Origin: Pseudomonas oryzihabitans | GTDB lineage: Bacteria; Pseudomonadota; Gammaproteobacteria; Pseudomonadales; Pseudomonadaceae | Assembly: GCF_001518815.1 (NCBI RefSeq) | Contig: NZ_CP013987.1 | Span: forward strand, 2,502,501 to 2,566,500 | Direction: 5' to 3' | DNA: 64,000 bases | Shown: positions 153 to 23,419 of the stretch, piece after piece | Position numbering within the stretch: the stretch's first letter is position 1 | Layout of the letters: each line of letters begins with the position of its first letter | Notes under the pieces: generated by a model | Told to the model about the DNA's origin: nothing | Database searches by the model: none | The model's input: the letters and a program-made list of their open reading frames with translations, nothing else | Translations under genes and position numbers: made by a program

Positions 153-311
153 AAAAGCCTGATTACAAGCTCGCAAGCCTGCGTCAAACGACCCCGTGAA
201 AACGCCTGAGGACGCTCGTCTACCTAGGGTGAACGAGCATTCCGACAGGACTGGTCTTCCAGGCCGTTTTCAGCGTGACTGGCCGACGCGCGGCAAACCG
301 TAAGCAGGGTT
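153..311. repeat. Dispersed intergenic repeat, copy A
   Basis: Non-coding stretch related to the elements at 16992-17148 and 23235-23419. Shared blocks include GAACGAGCATTCCGAC near the middle and TGGCCGACGCGC near the right end. The ends are imperfect inverted repeats (AAAAGCCTG on the left, AAGCAGGGTTT on the right). It fills the gap between the partial gene and the AI-2E permease gene and ends at that gene's stop codon. Boundaries are approximate. Confidence 0.55.
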
Positions 312-1486: not shown

Positions 1487-3163
1487 TCATACACGGAACT
1501 GGCGGACCAACCCGTTCAGGCGTTCGCCCAGGCCGACCATTCCAGCGGTACTCTGGGCCCCCTGCTGAGCACCCTGAGCCATGCTGTCGACGGCATTGGC
1601 GATGGTATGGACGCTGCGATTGATCTCCTCGGCCACCGCGGTCTGCTCCTCGGCGGCGCCAGCGATCTGGATGTTCATGGCGTTGATGGTGGCGATCAGC
1701 TCGCTGATGGCGGCCAGCGCGGTGCCAGCCTGCTCGGCCTGGGCGGTGGTCGCCTCACCCATGCCACCCGAGCGCTCCATGGCACCTACCGCACGCCCCG
1801 TCGCCTGCTGCAGGCGATCGATCATGCCCTGGATCTCCTGGGTGCTCTGCTGGGTGCGACTGGCCAGCGCCCGCACCTCGTCGGCCACGACGGCGAAGCC
1901 GCGACCGGCTTCACCGGCCCGGGCTGCCTCGATGGCGGCGTTGAGGGCCAGAAGGTTGGTCTGTTCGGCGATGGCGCGGATCACATCCAGAACGCCAACG
2001 ATGGCCCCCACATCCTGCTTGAGGCCGTCGAGGGAGACGCTGCTCTGGCGGACCTCTTCGACCAGCTCATGGATGCGCGTCACGCTGGTGGCAACCGTTT
2101 CCCGAGCCAGACGCCCCTGCTCCTCGGTCTGCCGGGTCGCCTCCGAGGCCTTCAGCGCGCTACTTGCCACTTCCTGGGCTGCAGCGGACATCTGATTGAT
2201 GGCGGTGGCCACCTGATCGGTTTCGCTGCGCTGACGCTGCATGTCGCGATCGGTGTGCTGGGCCTGCCGAGCGACATCTCCGAGCAGACCGGTGAATTGC
2301 TGGGTGATGTCGACGACCTGGGTGATGGTGCCCTGGATCCGATCGACGAAACGGTTGAAGGAGGCAGCGAGCTCACCGATCTCGTCGCGACCGTTGACGG
2401 GCAGCCGACGAGTGAGATCGCCCTCTCCGGCGGCGATGTCGTCGAGATTCTCGCGGATCTGCGCCAGGGGCCTCAGGGTCCGCGCCGCGAAGACGTGCGC
2501 CACGATACCGATCACCATCAGCAGCACGCCCGCCACGCCAAGGATCAGCCAGAGCTGGGCACGGGTGCGCTCGGCGACCTGATCGGCTACCGCCGCGACC
2601 TCGGCGTCCACACCGTCCAGGTTTACCGCCGACCCTATCACCAGGTCCCACTTGGGCAGGTAATCGGTGTAGGCGAGCTTGGGGACCAGCATGTCCTTGT
2701 TGCCCGGCAGCGAGGAGCTGTAGCGGCTGAAGTGAGAGCCGTCCTTGCCGGCACGCACCAACTCCTGGTTGAGGTAGACGCCCGCAGGATCGCGGTTGTC
2801 CTTGAAGCTCTTGCCGATGCCGGCCGGGTCATTGCCCTTGAACAGCCGGACGACGTTGGAGTCGTAGCCGAAGATATAGCCGTCCTTGCCATAGCTGATC
2901 GACGACAACAGGCGGATGGCCTCCTTGCGCGCCTCGGCATCACCTTCCGCGGCCTTGTCGTACAACGGCTTGACCACGGTCATGGCCGTCTCGACGGTGT
3001 TCTGCAACGCACTACGACTCTGGGCCATCAGCCGCTCGCGGGCGTCGGTGACATCCTTGAGTGCCTGCTCATGCAATACCCAGTAGGACAGGCCACCCAG
3101 TACAAGGGTAAACAGGCAGACGGGTAGCACGGCCAACAGGGTAACTTTCAGTTTGAGGCTCAC
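1487..3163 (-). CDS. Methyl-accepting chemotaxis protein with periplasmic Cache domain
   Basis: 558 residues in canonical order: membrane helix at about 8-28, periplasmic sensor at about 35-195 of single-Cache (sCache_2) type with DGYIFGYDS and a GIGKSFKDN-like block, second helix at about 204-226, HAMP at about 227-280, then the coiled-coil signalling domain. The hairpin tip is recognisable in [19 protein letters not shown] and [15 protein letters not shown]. No C-terminal CheR-docking pentapeptide is seen; the protein ends LVRQFRV. It would signal to the CheA/CheW array at the inner membrane. sCache_2 receptors often bind short carboxylates, but the ligand cannot be inferred here. Confidence 0.93.
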
Positions 3164-10292: not shown

Positions 10293-12016
10293 CTAGACGA
10301 CCGGCACCTCTTCGAGATGCCGGTACTCCGCCCCCAAGCGGCGAGCCAGTTCCGCTGCCCGCCCCAGGCGCAGCGGACCCAACTCGATGTCCAGGACCCG
10401 AATGGGACAATTCGGGACCGCCAGGCCTTCCAGCTCGCGCAGCCGCCCATCGGTGACCAGCAGCAGCTGGCACTCTTCACCGGGTTGCTGCCGGCGGCGG
10501 CGCGCCAGCCAGTCCTCGGCTTCCGCCAGCCCGGCCAATAACGGCGTGCCGCCGCCCGCTTCCAGCTGATCCAACCAGGCCTGCAACACCTGCCCACTAC
10601 GCTGTCCCTGGAAGGACCACTCGGGTCGCGCGCCCGCCGCTTGCAGCACCGCCACCCGGACCCGCTGTCGATAGGCCTGTTCGAACCAGTCGGCCAGCAC
10701 CCCCTTGGCCTGGGCCAGGGCGCCATGGCGACGAGTGGACGCAGAGTGATCGAGGATCACCAGCCAGAGTTGGGCTGGCCGTCGACTGCGAGGCTGGCGC
10801 ACGAGATCGCTCATGCGCTGCGGGCGACCGCGAAGCAATGTGGGCACCCAGGCGACGGCGCCTGCTGCGCCCGGTGACCGTGCGCCCTGACGACCGCCTG
10901 ACGCCTTGCCCACCCCGACCCGGGCATCGCGATCCTGGGTGTGGGGAGATCGGATGCCTAGGGCTTTTTTAGCCCGCCCAGTCGACGTCTGGGGCCGCCT
11001 GCCACAGGCTCTGGCGCCAGGGCACCCCAGGCGTCTCCCTCACCTCCCGCAGGCTCGCCTTCACCCTGTCCCTGTTGGTTACCCATCCCCTGCTCAGGAG
11101 TAGCGGAAGGAGGTGACTCATCCTGTAGGGGTGGTATTGTCTGAGCGGAATCCGCCGGCTCTCTGCGCCGATGGCGCAGGGCGAAGTCGGCTACGGCGGT
11201 AATGTCCGCGTGTTCTATCGCCGCGGCGCCGCGCCAGGCGGCATGCGCTCGAGCGGCGCGCAGCCAGACCAGGTCGGCGCGCAGGCCATCGACGCCAGCC
11301 TGGTGGCAGCCCGAGGTGATGGCCTCAAGGGCCGCATCATCCAGGGGAATGCTGGCCAGGCGCTCACGGGCCTGGGCGCAACGTTCGCGCAACCGCGCCT
11401 GATCAGGCTCCCACTGGGCGACGAATGCCGTGGGATCGCTATCGAAGGCCAGTCGCCGACGCAAGATCTCAGCGCGTTCACGTGGCGCCGGCCGGCTGTC
11501 CAGTGTCAGGGCGAAACCGAAGCGGTCGAGCAACTGCGGACGCAGCTCGCCCTCCTCTGGATTCATGGTGCCTACCAGCAGGAAGCGGGCAGCATGTTCA
11601 TGGGAGATGCCGTCGCGCTCTACCCGGTTGAGACCACTGGCGGCTACGTCCAGCAGCAGGTCCACCAGGTGGTCCGGCAGCAGATTGACCTCGTCGACAT
11701 AGAGCACACCCCCGTCCGCGGCGGCCAGCACCCCGGGCGCGAAGCGCGCCTGCCCCGCGCCGAGGGCGGCGTTCAGATCCAGGGTGCCGACGATGCGCTC
11801 TTCACTGGCCCCCAGCGGCAGGGTGACGAAGGGGCCGTCCCCGAGCAGATCTGCCAAACCACGCGCCAGGGTCGACTTGGCCATGCCGCGGGGGCCTTCG
11901 ATCAGCACCCCGCCAATGCGGGGGTCGATGGCATTCAGGCACAGCGCCAGTTTCAGGTCGTCCGCGCCGACCACGGCGGCCAGGGGGAAGACGGGAACGG
12001 TCATTTCAGGCTTCAT
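10293..12016 (-). CDS. chlD: Cobaltochelatase ChlD-like subunit, AAA+ plus VWA, joined by -1 frameshift
   Basis: Two overlapping frames together make one ChlD-like protein of about 574 residues. Frame 1 (10958-12016) is a MoxR/BchI-type AAA+ ATPase. Frame 2 runs to 10293 and holds a VWA domain with the MIDAS motif DHSAS, a GGTPLL threonine and VTDGR. Frame 2 is open from before the frame-1 stop, and its first candidate start is only a GTG at 10913. At the junction lies A AAA AAG, a 5-nt spacer and a hairpin. A -1 slip gives the join [13 protein letters not shown] with no stop. It adjoins cobN, so the chelatase inserts cobalt in aerobic B12 synthesis. Programmed frameshifting has been reported for chlD genes. 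Confidence 0.8.
10923..10970 (-). promoter_or_regulatory. Programmed -1 frameshift signal in chlD
   Basis: Reading the minus strand, codons CTA AAA AAG present the heptamer A AAA AAG (10964-10970) in the correct phase. CCCTA follows as a 5-nt spacer. Then a stem pairs GGCATC with GATGCC and CGATC with GATCG (10958 down to 10923) around a loop. The zero-frame TAG lies one codon after the slip site. This is the classical dnaX-type arrangement. Confidence 0.78.
10958..12016 (-). CDS. ChlI-like AAA+ ATPase, short (unshifted) product of chlD
   Basis: 352 residues when no frameshift occurs. Walker A is [14 protein letters not shown] (about 40-53), Walker [21 protein letters not shown], with sensor 1 Asn in [20 protein letters not shown] and an arginine finger region after it. 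The tail from about residue 305 is a Pro/Glu/Gly-rich linker ending [10 protein letters not shown]. It would act as the small AAA+ subunit in the chelatase ring, with the shifted product supplying the VWA-bearing subunit. It overlaps the cobN stop by 11 bp. No separate chlI or cobS gene is visible in this window. Confidence 0.85.
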
Positions 12017-15000
12017 CCATATCCATCAGTAGCTGTTCGAGGGCTTCACGGTAGTCGCCTGGCTCCTGCCAGAGGCCGCGCTGCTGGGCTTCCAGCAGGC
12101 GTTCGGTCATGTCGCGCAGGGCTTCGGGGTTGTGGCGCTCGACGAAGTCGCGGGTATCGGCGTCCAGCAGATAGGCATCGGCCAGTTGCCGATAGTGGTG
12201 GTCCTCCACCAGTTCGGTGGTGGCGCCAAAACCGAACAGATAGTCCACGGTGGCAGCCATCTCGAAAGCGCCCTTGTAGCCATGGCGTTTCATGCCGGCG
12301 ATCCATTTGGGATTGGCCGCTCGCGAACGCACGACCCGGCCCAGTTCTTCCTTGAGAGTGCGGATGCGTGGCAGGTCGGCCTGGGCATGGTCGCCGAAGT
12401 AGCTGGCGCGGCGCTGGCCGCTCAGGGTTTCGGCAGCCGCCAGCATGCCACCCTGGAACTGGTAGTAGTCGTTGGAATCGAGCAGGTCGTGCTCGCGATT
12501 GTCCTGATTCTGCAGCACCGCCTGCAGGCGGCCCAGACGCCGGGAGAAGTCGTCGCGCGCAGCAGTGCCCTCGTCCTCGGCACCATAGGCATAGCCGCCC
12601 CAGTTGAGATAAGCGGTAGCCAGCTCGCTGCGGTCCTGCCATTGGCGCTCCTCGACTGCACCCTGGACACCGGCGCCATAGGCCCCAGGCTGGGCGCCGA
12701 AGATGCGCCAGCCCGCCTGACGCCGGGCCTGGTCGGCCTCGATGCCGGCCGCTTCCAGCGCCGCCCGCTCCCGCCGCACCTGGGCAGCCAGGGGATTGAG
12801 GTCGTCCGGTTCGTCCAGCGCGGCGACCGCCTGGATCGCGGCATCGAACAACCGTACCAGGCCACCGAAGGCATCGCGGAAGAAGCCGGAGATACGCAGG
12901 GTGACATCCACTCGCGGTCGATCCAGCAGTGACAGTGGCAGGATCTCGAAGTCTTCGACCCGGGCGCTGCCGGTCTGCCACACCGGGCGCACGCCGAGCA
13001 GCGCCATGGCCTGGGCGATGTCATCGCCGCCGGTTCTCATGGTCGCCGTCCCCCAGACGGAAAGGCCCAGCTGGCGCAGGTGATCGCCCTCCTCCTGTAG
13101 ATGGCGCTCCAGCAGCAGGTTGCCCGACTGCCAGCCAAGTCGCCAGGCCGTCATGCTTGGCAGGTTGCGCACGTCCACGGAGAAGAAATTGCGCCCGGTG
13201 GGCAGCACGTCCAGTCGGCCGCGACTCGGCGCCCCACTGGGCCCGGCCGGGACGAAGCGACCGCCTAGAGCGGCCAGCAGGCCGGCGATTTCCGCAGGGC
13301 CACAGCCATCCAGGGCCGGTGCCACCTGGGCGACCAGCTGCTCCAGCACCGGGCGGGTCGCCGGCAGGTCGGCCAATGCCAAGGGCAGTGGTTCGCCATC
13401 CACCATCGCGGCGACCAGGGCGAGCGCGAGCACCTCAAGACGCTCGCGGGTGTCGCCCCGGGTGCGCCAGGGTTCCGCGGAAAGCGCGGCAAGGCACGCC
13501 GGACGGTCGCCCTGCCAGGGCTCGCCAAGATCGGCGGCCAGAGGATCGAACGCCAGCTGCAGATCCTTGGCCAGGGCGCGCAGCAGGCTGGCGTTGCCGC
13601 CCTGGGCGTCGCCGCGAGGAATGCGCAGCAGGGCCACCAGGGTGTCGCGGCGCAGCTGGCCGGTCGGGGATTCGCCGAACACGTGCAGGCCATCGCGGAT
13701 CTGGGATTCCTTGAGGTCGCAGAGATAGGCATCCAGCTGGGGCAGCCAGCTGTCGGGGTCATCGGTAATGACCAGGCCCAACTCGCGGTCCAGGGCAGTC
13801 TCGCGCACCAGCTGCAGGATCTCGGCGCGCAGCTCGGTGGCCCGGCGCAGATCCAGCAGGCTGGCGTCATAGTATTCGTCGGCCAGGCGCTCCAGGTCGC
13901 GCAGCGGGCCGTAGCTCTCGGCCCGGGTCAGCGGCGGCATCAGGTGATCGATGATCACCGCCTGGGTACGACGCTTGGCCTGAGCACCCTCGCCCGGATC
14001 GTTGACGATGAAGGGATAGACGTTGGGCAGCGGCCCGAGGATGGCGTCCGGCCAACACTCCTGCGACATGCCCACGCCCTTGCCCGGCAGCCACTCCAGG
14101 TTGCCGTGCTTGCCCAGGTGGACCACCGCCTGCGCCCCATAGGCCTCGCGCAGCCAGAAGTAGAAGGCCAGGTAGCCGTGGGGCGGGACCAGCGACGGGT
14201 CGTGATAGACCGCAGCGGGATCGACGTCATAGCCGCGGGCCGGCTGGATGCCGACGAAGGTCAGGCCGAAGCGCACCCCGGCCACCATCAGCCGGCCACG
14301 CCGCTGCATGGGATCGGCCTCGGGCGGCCCCCAGCGCTCGGTCACCGCCTCCTGCAGGCTTGGCGGCAACTGGGCGAACAACGCCTGGTAGTCATCCAGC
14401 GCCAGGCTCTGCAAGGCTGGGCGCAGATCGCGTAGGGCACTGTCGTTGGTGACGCCACCGAGCAGGCGCTCGATCAGGGCAGTACCGCTCTCCGGCAGAT
14501 TGGCCACCGGATAGCCGGCCGCCTGCAAGGCCTCCAGCACCTTGAGGGCAGCCGCCGGGGTATCCAGGCCTACGCCGTTGCCGATACGACCATCGCGGGT
14601 CGGATAATTGGCCAGGATCAGGGCGATGCGCTTGTCCGCCGCCGGGCGCCGCGCCAACTCGACCCAGTTGCGCGCCAGGCGGGCAACGAAGGCCATGCGC
14701 TCCTCGTCGGCCTGGTAGTTGACCACGTCGCTCTGGCTGCGCTCGCAGCGCCAGGCCAGACCCTTGAAACTGATCGGCCGGGTGATGATGCGCCCATCCA
14801 GCTCTGGCAGGGCGATGTGCATGGCCAGGTCGCGGGCGCCCAGGCCCTGGGGATTCTCCAGCCAGCGCTCGCGGTTGTCCTGGGCACAGATGGCCTGGAG
14901 CACCGGCACCGGTCGGCGGAAAGGTGCCAGGTTAGGCCGCTCCGGACTGGATTGGGCGAAGCCGGTGGTATTGAGGATCAGCGCGGTACCGGTCTCATCC

Positions 15001-15755
15001 AGCAGCCGCTCCACTTCCGTCAGGCAAGCGGATTCCTTGAGACTGGCCACGGCGATGGGCAGCGGATTCAGTCCCTGGGCCTGCAGTTGCTGGCAGAAGA
15101 TATCAACGAAGGCCGTGTTGGCCGACTGCAGATGGGTGCGATAGAACAATAGCGCCGCCGTCGGCCAATCCGGCTGCCAGCGTTGGCGCCAGCCGTCGAG
15201 GCCAAGGCCTTCGGGCTGGTACACCGCCACGCGCGGCAATTCTCGTGGCGCCTCGTGGGTGTAGCTGGCACCCAGGCATTCGGCGGCCAGGCAATGGAGA
15301 AAATCCCGGGCATTCGTCAGACCGCCCTGGCGCAGATAGCGCCACAGTCGCTCGGCCAGCTCGGGCGCGACCGTACCCAGGGCCATCAGCTCCGGATCAG
15401 GGCGATCACAACCCGGTACCGCGATCAGGGTCAGACCCCGTGCGGCCAGCTCGGTGAGGCGTTCCATGCCATAGCGCCAATACCCCTGGCCGCCGTGCAG
15501 GGAGATGAACACCACCCGCGCCTGGCTCAGCACCTCCTCGACATAAAGATCCACCGAGGCGTGGTTCTGCAGCTGCATGGGGTTGGCCAGGCGCAGGCTG
15601 GGATAGCCGTCATCCAGGGTGCGGGTGGCCTCGGCCAGGAGCGCCAGGTGCGAGTCGCCACTGCAGAGGACAACGATTTCACCCGGCGTCTGCGCCAGGT
15701 GGGCAATGCCGTCATCCGGGACAAAACCGCCCGGCTGGGTACGCAGCAGATGCAT
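12006..15755 (-). CDS. cobN: Cobaltochelatase large subunit CobN
   Basis: 1249 residues, normal for CobN. It contains CobN/magnesium-chelatase H-subunit blocks such as [19 protein letters not shown] (about 545-563), [19 protein letters not shown], and late [18 protein letters not shown]. It binds hydrogenobyrinic acid a,c-diamide and inserts Co2+ using ATP hydrolysis by the AAA+ partners. The stop overlaps the start of chlD, and cobW ends 6 bp upstream of the cobN start, so cobW-cobN-chlD form one operon transcribed away from the B12 riboswitch. CobN paired with ChlD-like rather than CobS/CobT partners is a known variant. Confidence 0.95.
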
Positions 15756-15761
15756 CTAGGT

Positions 15762-16814
15762 TCAGGCCACCGCAGCGCGCAGCTGAGCGGTGATCGCCGC
15801 CTGGTCCAGCTCCTGGCCGATCAGCACCAGTTGGGTGCGACGGGGTTCCGCCGCCTGCCAGGCACGGTCGAAATGCTTGTCGAAACGGGTGCCGACTCCC
15901 TGTACCAGCAGGCGCAGCGGCTTGCCGGCAATGGCGGCGAAGCCCTTCACCCGCAGCACGCCATGGCGCTTGACCACCTCGGTCAGGGCCGCCAGCAGGG
16001 TCGCTTCGGCGACTTCGGGCAATTCGACACCAAAGGAGTCGAATTCGTCATGATCATGGTCTTCATGCCCCTCGAGGTCGTGGTGGGTCGGACGGCTGTC
16101 GATATGGGCCTCGGACTCGGCCTGCAGCCCCAGCAGCACCGACAACGGCAGCACGCCGCGACTGGCTTCCACCACCTTGACCGCCGGCGGCAATTCCTCG
16201 GTCACCTCGGCGCGGACCCGGGCCAGCGCCTCGGCATCCAGGCCGTCGGCCTTGTTGAGGATCACCAGGTCGGCACTGGCCAGCTGGTCTTCGAACAGCT
16301 CATGCAGCGGCGACTCGTGGTCCAGGTTGGGATCCTGGCGGCGCTGAACGTCCACCTGCTCGGGGTGGGCGGCGAAGGTGCCGGCAGCCACGGCCGGACT
16401 GTCGACCACGGTGATCACCGCGTCCACGGTGCAGGCGTTGCGGATCTCCGGCCACTGGAAGGCCTGCACCAGCGGCTTGGGCAAGGCCAGGCCGCTGGTC
16501 TCGATGAGGATGTGGTCGATGTCGCCACGACGCGCCACCAGCTCCTTCATGACCGGGAAGAACTCTTCCTGCACGGTGCAGCAGAGGCAGCCGTTGGCCA
16601 GTTCGAAGACCCGACCCTGGGCTTCTTCTTCGGTGCAACCGATGCTGCACTGACGGAGGATCTCCCCGTCGATGCCCAGTTCGCCGAATTCATTGACGAT
16701 CACCGCGATGCGGCGGCCTTCGGCATGGTCGAGCATGTGGCGCAACAGGGTGGTCTTGCCGGAGCCGAGGAAGCCGGTGACGATGGTGACGGGGGTCTTG
16801 GCCAGGGTTTTCAT
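15762..16814 (-). CDS. cobW: CobW, cobalamin-associated G3E GTPase metallochaperone
   Basis: 350 residues. P-loop GFLGSGKTTLLRHML at about 15-29, the zinc/cobalt-binding CxCC motif in NGCLCCTV, GTPase motif NKADGLD, and a His/Asp-rich stretch HHDLEGHEDHDHDEFDSFG around 240-260. A C-terminal CobW_C domain follows (LRVKGFAAIAG). CobW family members deliver metal; this one is assigned to the cobalt pathway by its place directly upstream of cobN and under a cobalamin riboswitch. It ends 6 bp before cobN. Confidence 0.94.
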   Translation of the reverse strand: MKTLAKTPVTIVTGFLGSGKTTLLRHMLDHAEGRRIAVIVNEFGELGIDGEILRQCSIGCTEEEAQGRVFELANGCLCCTVQEEFFPVMKELVARRGDIDHILIETSGLALPKPLVQAFQWPEIRNACTVDAVITVVDSPAVAAGTFAAHPEQVDVQRRQDPNLDHESPLHELFEDQLASADLVILNKADGLDAEALARVRAEVTEELPPAVKVVEASRGVLPLSVLLGLQAESEAHIDSRPTHHDLEGHEDHDHDEFDSFGVELPEVAEATLLAALTEVVKRHGVLRVKGFAAIAGKPLRLLVQGVGTRFDKHFDRAWQAAEPRRTQLVLIGQELDQAAITAQLRAAVA

Positions 16815-16930
16815 GGGCTGCCCTTAGGTGAAATGCGAGAAAAGGCGGGCAGGCATGCCGGACGCTCGCACGCTGGCGAGGCCCTGGTGGCAGCCCGGAT
16901 CACCCCGCCCGGTTGCGTATGGAAAACTAG

Positions 16931-17243
16931 CGAGGCAGGTCTCCTGGCTCACGGCGCCCGACTCCGGCCTTCCCGCGTGAGCAGTGGCCTTAGAGCTTGT
17001 TCATGATTTCGCGAGCTAGAGTCGAGCAAGGCGAAGATACTTAAGGAAGCGGATCGGACTCGCGCTCGAGTTTACGAATGGTAAATGAGCATTCCGAAAG
17101 CATCTTCAACGCAGTTGACCGACGCGCAGCACATTATGAACAGGCTCTGTGGAGAGGCTGAAGATGCCGCTTACAGTTGCGGGGGCAGCCGCGGTGTCGC
17201 ACCGCGTTCCCTTTCAAGCTCTTGCGGACAAGAGCACCTCGAA
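16931..17243 (-). promoter_or_regulatory. Cobalamin riboswitch upstream of cobW, interrupted by a repeat element
   Basis: The minus strand shows the full set of conserved aptamer blocks: GAGGTGCTCTT near 17240, AAAGGGAACGCGGTG, GGCTGCCCCCGCAACTGTAA near 17170, then after a 157-bp insert GGCCACTG, GCGGGAAGG and finally GAGCCAGGAGACCTGCC at about 16931-16950. The insert (16992-17148) sits in the peripheral arm between the CAACTGTAA and GCCACTG blocks. Without it the aptamer would be about 156 nt. About 116 nt separate it from the cobW start, leaving room for an expression platform. B12 should repress cobW-cobN-chlD. Confidence 0.88.
16992..17148. mobile_element. MITE-like element, copy B, inside the cobW riboswitch
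   Basis: 157 bp with imperfect terminal inverted repeats: left AGAGCTTGTTCATGATTTCG, right (reverse complement) AGAGCCTGTTCATAATGTGC. It has no coding capacity. The interior shares TAAATGAGCATTCCGA and GACCGACGCGC with copies at 153-311 and 23235-23419. No clear target-site duplication was found. It is probably mobilised by a transposase encoded elsewhere, or is a decayed remnant. Confidence 0.72.
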
Positions 17244-17325
17244 GCCCGACAGGCTACGAGTGCCCCGCCGGGGTGTCAATCGAACAGGCTTGACCGTCGG
17301 ACGACCCGCGTGGTCTGCTCGACCC

Positions 17326-17637
17326 TGCTTCAGGTGTCGCGACTCCGCCATGGGTCGCGGTGAAACGGGAAGCCGGTCCAAGTCCGGCACTGCCCCCGCA
17401 ACGGTAGACGAGCGCAGGATCACGATGCCACCCGGCCGGCAAGCTTGGGGAAGGCGATCCTGGTAGTCGTACGGGAATGCGATCTTGAGCGAGCCCGCGC
17501 ACGGCAAGACGAAACCTTCGTAGCAAGCGTCATTTACAGGGTGTAGATGAGTCTTGCGGAGAAGGATTCGACAACGCCGGGCCGAGCGCAGCCAGCCCGC
17601 CCCCACAAGACCCTCGTGAGTCCGGAGACCGGCCTGT
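17326..17637 (+). promoter_or_regulatory. Cobalamin riboswitch upstream of cbtB, enlarged
   Basis: Plus-strand blocks GCTTCAGGTGTCGCG, GTGAAACGGGAAGCCGGT, GGCACTGCCCCCGCAACGGT, ATGCCACCC, GGGGAAGGCGATCC, and, about 160 nt later, GTGAGTCCGGAGACCGGCC (about 17617-17635). The usual distance between the GGGAAGG and GAGNCNGGAGACC blocks is a few tens of nucleotides, so roughly 140 nt are inserted. It lies about 100 nt before cbtB and should shut off cobalt uptake when B12 is abundant. The 3' boundary is less certain than for the cobW copy. Confidence 0.72.
17479..17593. repeat. Probable decayed copy D of the dispersed repeat, inside the cbtB riboswitch
   Basis: GAGCGAGCCCGCGCACGGCAAGACGAA, here cited only as positions 17487-17512, aligns by eye to the TCGCGAGCTAGAGTCGAGCA region of copy B. 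Positions 17545-17593 follow the middle and right part of copy B, including a GATGAG-rich core and a GCCGAGCGCAGCC end. The terminal repeats are not recognisable. Similarity is partial and unscored. Confidence 0.35.
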
Positions 17638-17738
17638 CGCCTTCAAGCAACCCGCGGTGGGCGGTCGTGCTGGACGGCGGCTGCCTACCGGCCCGCTGCC
17701 TAGGCGCGTCCCTGCCGCTTCGACTCCGAGGCCTCGTC

Positions 17739-17924
17739 ATGACCGCTGCCCGCTCCACCACCGCCCTGCCCCAGACCAGTACCCGCACCCAACGCCTGAC
17801 GGCCACCCTGCTCGCCTGCCTGTTTGGCCTGGGCCTGGTGTTCCTGGCCGGCTTTTCCCATGTCGAGGCCCTGCACAACGGCGCCCACGACACCCGCCAC
17901 AGCGAAGGCTTCCCCTGCCACTAA
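17739..17924 (+). CDS. cbtB: CbtB, small subunit of cobalt transporter
   Basis: 61 residues from MTAARSTTALPQTSTRTQRL. One membrane helix (LLACLFGLGLVFLAGF) is followed by the family's metal-binding tail HNGAHDTRHSEGFPCH. This start is preferred over an upstream in-frame ATG at 17547, which would lie inside the riboswitch. CbtB works with CbtA in B12-regulated cobalt uptake. The gene ends 12 bp before cbtA and is the first gene after the plus-strand riboswitch. Confidence 0.93.
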   Translation: MTAARSTTALPQTSTRTQRLTATLLACLFGLGLVFLAGFSHVEALHNGAHDTRHSEGFPCH

Positions 17925-17936
17925 GAGGAGATCGGC

Positions 17937-18614
17937 ATGTTTCAGCGTATCGCCTTCAGTGCCGGCGTGGCCGGCCTGCTCGCCGCCCTTCTGCTGAGCG
18001 TCCTGCAGAGCCTCTGGCTGACCCCGCTCATCCTTCAGGCGGAAACCTATGAGGTACAGGTCGAGGCACCGGTCATGACGGAGCATCATGAGCACGGCGC
18101 AGAAGCCTGGTCGCCGGAAGACGGCTGGCCACGCACCCTGGCCACCTTTGGCGGCAACCTGGTGGTGGCTGTGGGCTTCGGCCTGGTCCTGGCGGGCCTG
18201 TTCAATCTGCGCACACCGCACCGAACCTACCAGGGCCTGCTGTGGGGACTGGCTGGCTATGCCACCTTCTGCCTCGCGCCCAGCCTCGGCCTGCCACCGG
18301 AACTGCCAGGGACCGCCGCAGCCGACCTGACCCTAAGGCAAACCTGGTGGATCGGCACCGCTGGGGCCACCGCGTCCGCCCTCGCCCTGCTGGTCTTCGC
18401 CCGCCATCCCGGCTACAAGATCATCGCTCTGGGTCTGCTGGTATTGCCGCATGTGCTAGGTGCGCCCCAGCCCATCGAGCATTCCAGCCTGGCACCGCAC
18501 GAGCTGCAGCGGCACTTCCAGATCGCCGTGCTGGCGAGCAATCTGCCATTCTGGTTGTTGCTGGGACTGGCCTGCAGTTGGCTGTTTCGCCGTCAGGGCG
18601 CGTCACACCCATGA
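17937..18614 (+). CDS. cbtA: CbtA, cobalt transporter membrane subunit
   Basis: 225 residues with about five hydrophobic helices, as expected for CbtA. A periplasmic loop contains HHEHGAEAWSPEDGW (about 55-70), a conserved His-bearing block of the family; later GLLWGLAGYATFCLAPSLGLPPELPG is another family signature region (about 100-125). A good Shine-Dalgarno sequence (AGAGGAG) precedes the ATG. Its stop overlaps the cobE start in ATGA. It would import Co2+ for the aerobic B12 pathway. Confidence 0.93.
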   Translation: MFQRIAFSAGVAGLLAALLLSVLQSLWLTPLILQAETYEVQVEAPVMTEHHEHGAEAWSPEDGWPRTLATFGGNLVVAVGFGLVLAGLFNLRTPHRTYQGLLWGLAGYATFCLAPSLGLPPELPGTAAADLTLRQTWWIGTAGATASALALLVFARHPGYKIIALGLLVLPHVLGAPQPIEHSSLAPHELQRHFQIAVLASNLPFWLLLGLACSWLFRRQGASHP

Positions 18615-23234: not shown

Positions 23235-23419
23235 AGAGCCTGCCCCCAATCTCGCGCGTTAGAGTCAGACAAGGCTAGGCGGCCCCGCGAAAACACCTGA
23301 AAAAGCGGATCGGACCTGCGCTCACGGTTACCACTGGCAAGTGAGCACTCCGACCGGGCTGACGACCCAGGCCTTTCCGACGCAGTCTGGCCGACCCGCA
23401 ACAGGATAAAAGCAGGCTT
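23235..23419. repeat. Dispersed intergenic repeat, copy C, between cpxP and cpxA
   Basis: 185 bp with inverted ends AGAGCCTG and CAGGCTT and interior similarity to copies A and B (CGCGAAAACACCTGA, GAGCACTCCGAC, CAGTCTGGCCGAC). It finishes 12 bp before the cpxA start codon and so forms most of that gene's leader. Non-coding. Confidence 0.65.

Follow-up and report, generated by a model that had tools for sequence, protein, structure and literature searches.

Divergent cobW and cbtB leaders and their aptamers

The window (the whole 64,000-nucleotide stretch of DNA analysed here, part of the genome referred to as G000) contains two Cobalamin riboswitch aptamers on opposite strands, the second starting 58 bases past the first. 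According to Pfam, both sit upstream of B12/cobalt genes, cobW-cobN in one direction and cbtB-cbtA in the other (Table 1). No further Rfam families were detected around the two aptamers at gathering scores in this part of the window.

A preliminary description had placed a B12 aptamer at 16931-17243 on the minus strand of the cobW leader and proposed that an element with inverted ends splits it. The covariance model confirmed the aptamer, as a single RF00174 match (gathering score 31.5 bits) contains those limits and joins the flanking blocks on both sides despite the insert. The limits of the element and its termini, which are inverted repeats, were confirmed as well. The second, divergent aptamer was not part of that description and encloses an element copy of its own, whose match to the element model (R1, see below) is independent of the building of that model, the copy being outside the training set.

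Table 1 Features of the two leaders and other element copies in the window
Feature	Position	Strand	Evidence
Cobalamin riboswitch aptamer of cobW-cobN, with insert	16917..17256	-	RF00174, 83.5 bits, E 1.7e-20, model 1-189
MITE-like palindromic element (157 bp) in peripheral arm, between CAACTGTAA and GCCACTG	16992..17148	-	inverted ends, empty relatives
Element core, cobW copy	17011..17129	-	R1 107.4 bits, E 4.9e-29; among the 34 model-building copies
cobW	15762..16814	-	Pfam cobW 4.8e-59, CobW_C 8.2e-19
cobN	12006..15755	-	Pfam CobN-Mg_chel, 1311.8 bits
AAA/Mg-chelatase ChlI-like gene, after cobN	10958..12016	-	Pfam AAA_lid_2, AAA_5, Mg_chelatase
Second Cobalamin riboswitch aptamer, of cbtB-cbtA	17315..17651	+	RF00174, 67 bits, E 9e-16, model 1-189
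Insert in cbtB aptamer, 136 nt	17471..17606	.	small hairpin there in relatives; limits by eye
Decayed element core in cbtB insert, antisense to cbtB	17489..17591	-	R1 60.2 bits, E 3.3e-15
cbtB	17739..17924	+	Pfam CbtB 2.3e-22
cbtA (cobalt transporter)	17937..18614	+	Pfam CbtA 4.3e-50
Further element core	23254..23401	-	R1 56.1 bits
Further element core	173..293	-	R1 39.5 bits

The inserted element and its family

Searched by BLAST at E ≤ 0.001, the 4.83-Mb genome contains 38 matches to the element, counting its own position. An alignment of 34 core copies was used to build a covariance model for the core, R1 (104 positions, 23 pairs); 37 copies had been found and 3 long ones were excluded (one each in L007, L020 and L028). 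At E ≤ 0.001, R1 detected 52 copies in G000, four of which are in the window, all on the minus strand; of these four, the cobW copy alone belongs to the 34 used for model building. The repeat had been described beforehand as mobile-type, lying in a peripheral arm and present elsewhere in the window, and these copies, together with the one covariance match that spans the insert, bear this out. The traits of a MITE are present, i.e., short length, terminal inverted repeats and multiple copies.

Seven of the training copies are themselves inside aptamers (cobW of G000, G006, G009, G010 and G012; cbtB of G003 and L084) and match R1 by construction, as they were used in building it. The aptamer copies of G004, G007 and L129 and those in the cbtB aptamers of G000 and G010 were outside the training set. 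R1 matches were detected in 47 of 59 Pseudomonadaceae genomes, and the five genus members in this set have from 50 to at least 61 copies each (at least 61 in three of them).

The inner stem of the core covaries. A total of 57 cells were changed on both sides versus 14.0 for shuffles, of which none in 500 reached 57. Of the cells, 95.9% were paired, compared with 34.5–54.9% with a slid partner, the former value being favoured by a structure taken from the same alignment. Among the copies (alignment A1; L001–L030), the inner stems differ yet remain self-complementary, and small GC-rich modules are variably present in the element loops. Varying inner stems together with loop modules are, we think, atypical for copies of one MITE.

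The element was presumably moved in trans by a transposase. Searches of its own genome with the end pattern and with PF13358 found no mobilising transposase: the element-end pattern, with up to two mismatches, was detected at 40 places in G000 versus 12 for a reversed control, and the one IS630 model searched, the IS630-type transposase DDE_3 (PF13358), had 0 matches in G000. One pair of ends about 1 kb apart (by eye) was considered as an autonomous partner and rejected, as it overlaps a 250-aa frame and flanks no recognised transposase. We take the product of this frame to be a CoaX-like pantothenate kinase, not a transposase.

Filled and empty aptamers in relatives

The cobW aptamer was identified in all 13 genomes assigned to the genus, and in 8 of them it contains the element or a remnant. 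The site used in the window is occupied in G000, G006, G010 and G012. In G003 the arm holds a 50-nt remnant, little beyond the inverted ends and without the core, and in G004 a different, diverged copy that is reversed in orientation and scores 45.4 bits with R1. The arm is empty in G007 and G009, which instead carry an element copy within the first hairpin loop (shortened to 91 nt in G007); in these two genomes the Rfam match begins within the element copy, and the aptamer's 5' part was identified by eye. Comparison with relatives lacking the element, as the preliminary description had suggested, showed a short arm without inverted ends in G001, G008 and G011 (aptamer of 183 nt); the arm is also short in G002 and G005 (190 nt). 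TA is found on both sides of the cobW-arm element in G006 and G010, plus one extra base, and the duplication is imperfect at the window's cobW site, where it is eroded in the window copy.

The cbtB aptamer is present in 11 of the 13 genomes, and 3 of these 11 (G000, G003, G010) have an R1 match inside it. Its length is 334–338 nt in these three genomes and 206 nt in G006, G007, G008 and G009. The two genomes lacking a cbtB-side aptamer, G001 and G011, also have no cbtA match in the stretch covered beside cobW, and the other 11 genus members differ in this.

Elements of this family were found in aptamers at multiple sites and in multiple lineages. Across 80 named cobW loci, in which cmscan detected 134 Cobalamin matches, R1 matched within an aptamer in six, i.e., L077, L078, L080 and L081 of this group, and L084 and L129 (CobW identity of 83% and 81%, respectively). 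In L129, from the species currently named Phytopseudomonas daroniae, the element separates the first hairpin of the cobW aptamer from AGAGGGAAC, and the Rfam match begins within the element. The TA duplication is clean there, reading GCTA[GAACC..GGTTC]TAAGAGGG, and six other leaders that were compared read GCTAAGAGGG. In L084, a metagenome-assembled genome labelled Pseudomonas, the element is in a cbtB aptamer of 372 nt.

Counting by site and orientation, we infer at least six separate insertions into the two aptamer types, four in the genus group (cobW arm, cobW hairpin loop, G004 and cbtB hairpin) and two outside it (L129 and L084). On the question of a single origin of the cobW-arm insert, the cobN tree requires at least two changes, for which gain and loss, recombination or repeated insertion would each account. 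Because the species with a filled arm do not group together in this tree, the number of events within the cobW arm is uncertain. In the cobW tree, 1 of the 10 inner branches is well supported.

Element copies were also seen beside aptamers. In L104, a copy (2272-2375, minus strand) follows the cobW aptamer and precedes cobW, where the expression platform is expected, and L091, L110 and L146 have copies at a similar place (about 1516-1625, minus strand), probably near the cbtB-cbtA junction.

Core conservation, predicted folding and the effect of the inserts

To compare filled and empty aptamers, deviations from the majority in the conserved core were counted in the cobW aptamers of ten close genomes, the distant G002, G004 and G005 being excluded. 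There were 5 deviations in the 7 filled rows and 3 in the 3 empty rows. Variable columns made up 4 of 129 in the core blocks (29 of the 129 being a conserved stretch directly past the Rfam match) versus 39 of 83 among the other aptamer columns, a contrast that is partly by construction because the blocks were picked by eye as conserved.

The inserts of the cobW leaders were largely isolated from the host RNA in the predicted folds. Cross-pairing summed to 0.00–0.37 in the eight cobW inserts, compared with shuffle means of 8.5–36.5 (40 shuffles each), and equally low values were reached by 0 of 40 shuffles for seven of them and by 1 of 40 for G003. The pairs of the empty fold were retained at a mean of 0.72–0.98 in the filled aptamers versus 0.73–0.98 in the empty ones, where retained pairs include non-native ones and the models ignore ligand and pseudoknots. 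As many pairs were retained by 1 of 40 shuffles for G000, 2 of 40 for G003 and 0 of 40 for the other six; the retained-pair mean of the inserts drops slightly in G009 and G004. The fold stability of G004 (-117.2) was not above that of its shuffles (mean -117.8).

Isolation in the predicted folds is weaker for the five inserts in the cbtB aptamers of G000, G003 and G010 and in L084 and L129. Cross-pairing was 5.43, 1.36, 0.01, 1.00 and 1.90, respectively, with equally low values in 1 of 30 shuffles for L084 and 0 of 30 for the other four. Retained pairs were 0.73 versus 0.86 when empty in G000 (as many retained by 9 of 30 shuffles), 0.84 versus 0.86 in G003 (4 of 30), 0.68 versus 0.81 in G010 (0 of 30), 0.88 versus 0.83 in L084 (0 of 30) and 0.89 versus 0.85 in L129 (0 of 30).

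Given these patterns, we consider it likely that both aptamers of the window carry a tolerated MITE-like insert and that B12 repression is probably kept. The insert in the cobW aptamer would be a short, non-autonomous palindrome, from a family common across Pseudomonadaceae, that entered a TA-containing site in a peripheral arm, and another copy of the family would have entered the cbtB aptamer on the other strand. As the element consists of a single long self-complementary hairpin, its RNA is predicted to form an extra side helix while the ligand-binding core would fold as before. The insert would persist because its own hairpin leaves the core free to fold and selection has not removed it. 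From this we infer that the response to ligand is retained, in which case B12 would probably still repress cobW-cobN and cbtBA. The extra helix and a core still able to fold had both been anticipated in the preliminary description, and the folding analysis upholds them as predictions.

The same description had raised the possibility that the insert breaks B12 control. If the riboswitch were disabled or strongly weakened, cobW-cobN (and cbtBA) would be constitutive and the aptamer would be decaying. In line with this, RF00174 scores fall from 115.7–122.2 bits in empty cobW aptamers (G008, G001, G011) to 83.5 in the window, and from 94.2–97.1 in empty cbtB aptamers (G006–G009) to 67, a decrease to which the insert itself contributes by costing score, and the window's cbtB insert is the least isolated of all in folding. 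However, the filled cobW aptamers show no excess of core changes over the empty ones, despite divergence from the window's copy of about 9% in cobW and about 12% in cobN among these close genomes, which makes a broken control unlikely. The element could also have been exapted, its hairpin tuning the switching, or a cut by RNase III giving a two-piece aptamer or faster mRNA turnover. The predicted RNA does contain a long imperfect duplex, the same two leaders repeatedly hold the element, and cleavage by RNase III has precedents in the available parts of two sources, i.e., Correia-bearing transcripts (PMC10969869) and an intervening sequence excised from rRNA (PMC4990558). Exaptation nevertheless seems rather improbable, as the insert is cut to 50 nt in G003 and missing in close species, and its site and strand vary between lineages.

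Insertion may instead have been targeted, the element preferring hairpin loops or B12 aptamers. The insertions counted above fall in two aptamer families, and two control RNAs, the TPP aptamer (127–128 nt) and RNase P RNA (356–358 nt), are free of inserts in 13 of 13 genus genomes. In addition, 2 of the 52 G000 copies are in aptamers; under a rough uniform model, the post hoc P value for this is about 0.001–0.003. Because the intergenic fraction in this model was assumed and the question was chosen after the data, a preference for B12 aptamers is not established. Independent events are few, moreover, and the controls are only two and both short. In 11 loci with further B12 aptamers from the genus, no R1 match fell within the aptamer, and none of 101 aptamers from 26 further Pseudomonadaceae genomes exceeded 285 nt, in a list that cannot include aptamers missed or split by Rfam through an insert; the three longest (282–285 nt) had no R1 match, and L202 may have a remnant of the element, seen by eye only. 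We hold targeting to be quite improbable. A further idea, to which we give a small chance, is that the arms are recurrent docking sites and that a self-insulating palindrome has been co-opted as an exchangeable arm, altering kinetics or mRNA processing between species.

The arrangement is real and unusual, in that riboswitches of a known class recurrently contain inserts of a mobile type. The aptamers resemble RF00174 in their full-length match, conserved core blocks and downstream cobW-cobN or cbtBA genes, and differ in a peripheral arm that holds a mobile-type repeat of 136–157 nt. A search judged by titles and abstract openings, with subscription literature mostly outside it, found no report of repeats or transposable elements inside riboswitches. 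The genus provides natural pairs of one riboswitch with and without the insert in close species, and with the insert in different arms. Such pairs allow direct measurement of the tolerance to mobile inserts and of their effects on control. The findings also suggest why such inserts survive, each folding into a hairpin by itself with little pairing to the surrounding RNA.

Insertion of ERIC and Correia elements involves a TA duplication. Like these, NEMIS and other bacterial MITEs, the element described here is short, palindromic, multicopy and inserted at TA, a likeness in general features. It differs in that the inner stem varies with compensating changes and that copies lie within riboswitch aptamers. 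The reverse arrangement is described in the available part of PMC10969869, in which pneumococcal BOX elements possibly contain T-box riboswitch motifs, i.e., a riboswitch-like motif in a repeat, whereas here the repeat is in the riboswitch. Intervening sequences of 23S rRNA are likewise selfish inserts, placed in a helix of another structured RNA; that insert is removed by RNase III (PMC4990558), whereas for the present element such a cut is hypothetical. R178 and R200 are intergenic repeats of Pseudomonas fluorescens (PMC2718517), and R178, 101 bp long with an internal inverted repeat, resembles the 104-position R1 core in its description. Triplex repeats were rejected as the family of the element, as their motif differs in the part of PMC4666352 available.

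In the flanks of L157–L186, a single core is bordered by three or more kinds of ends, including GAGCCTGTTCA, CTAGG(C/T)TCTGTACGAAAA and CCTCAGAAGCTGTTCACGATC. Four of the G000 copies (L005, L006, L010 and L022) start at an apparent gene stop codon, as judged by eye with no gene called.
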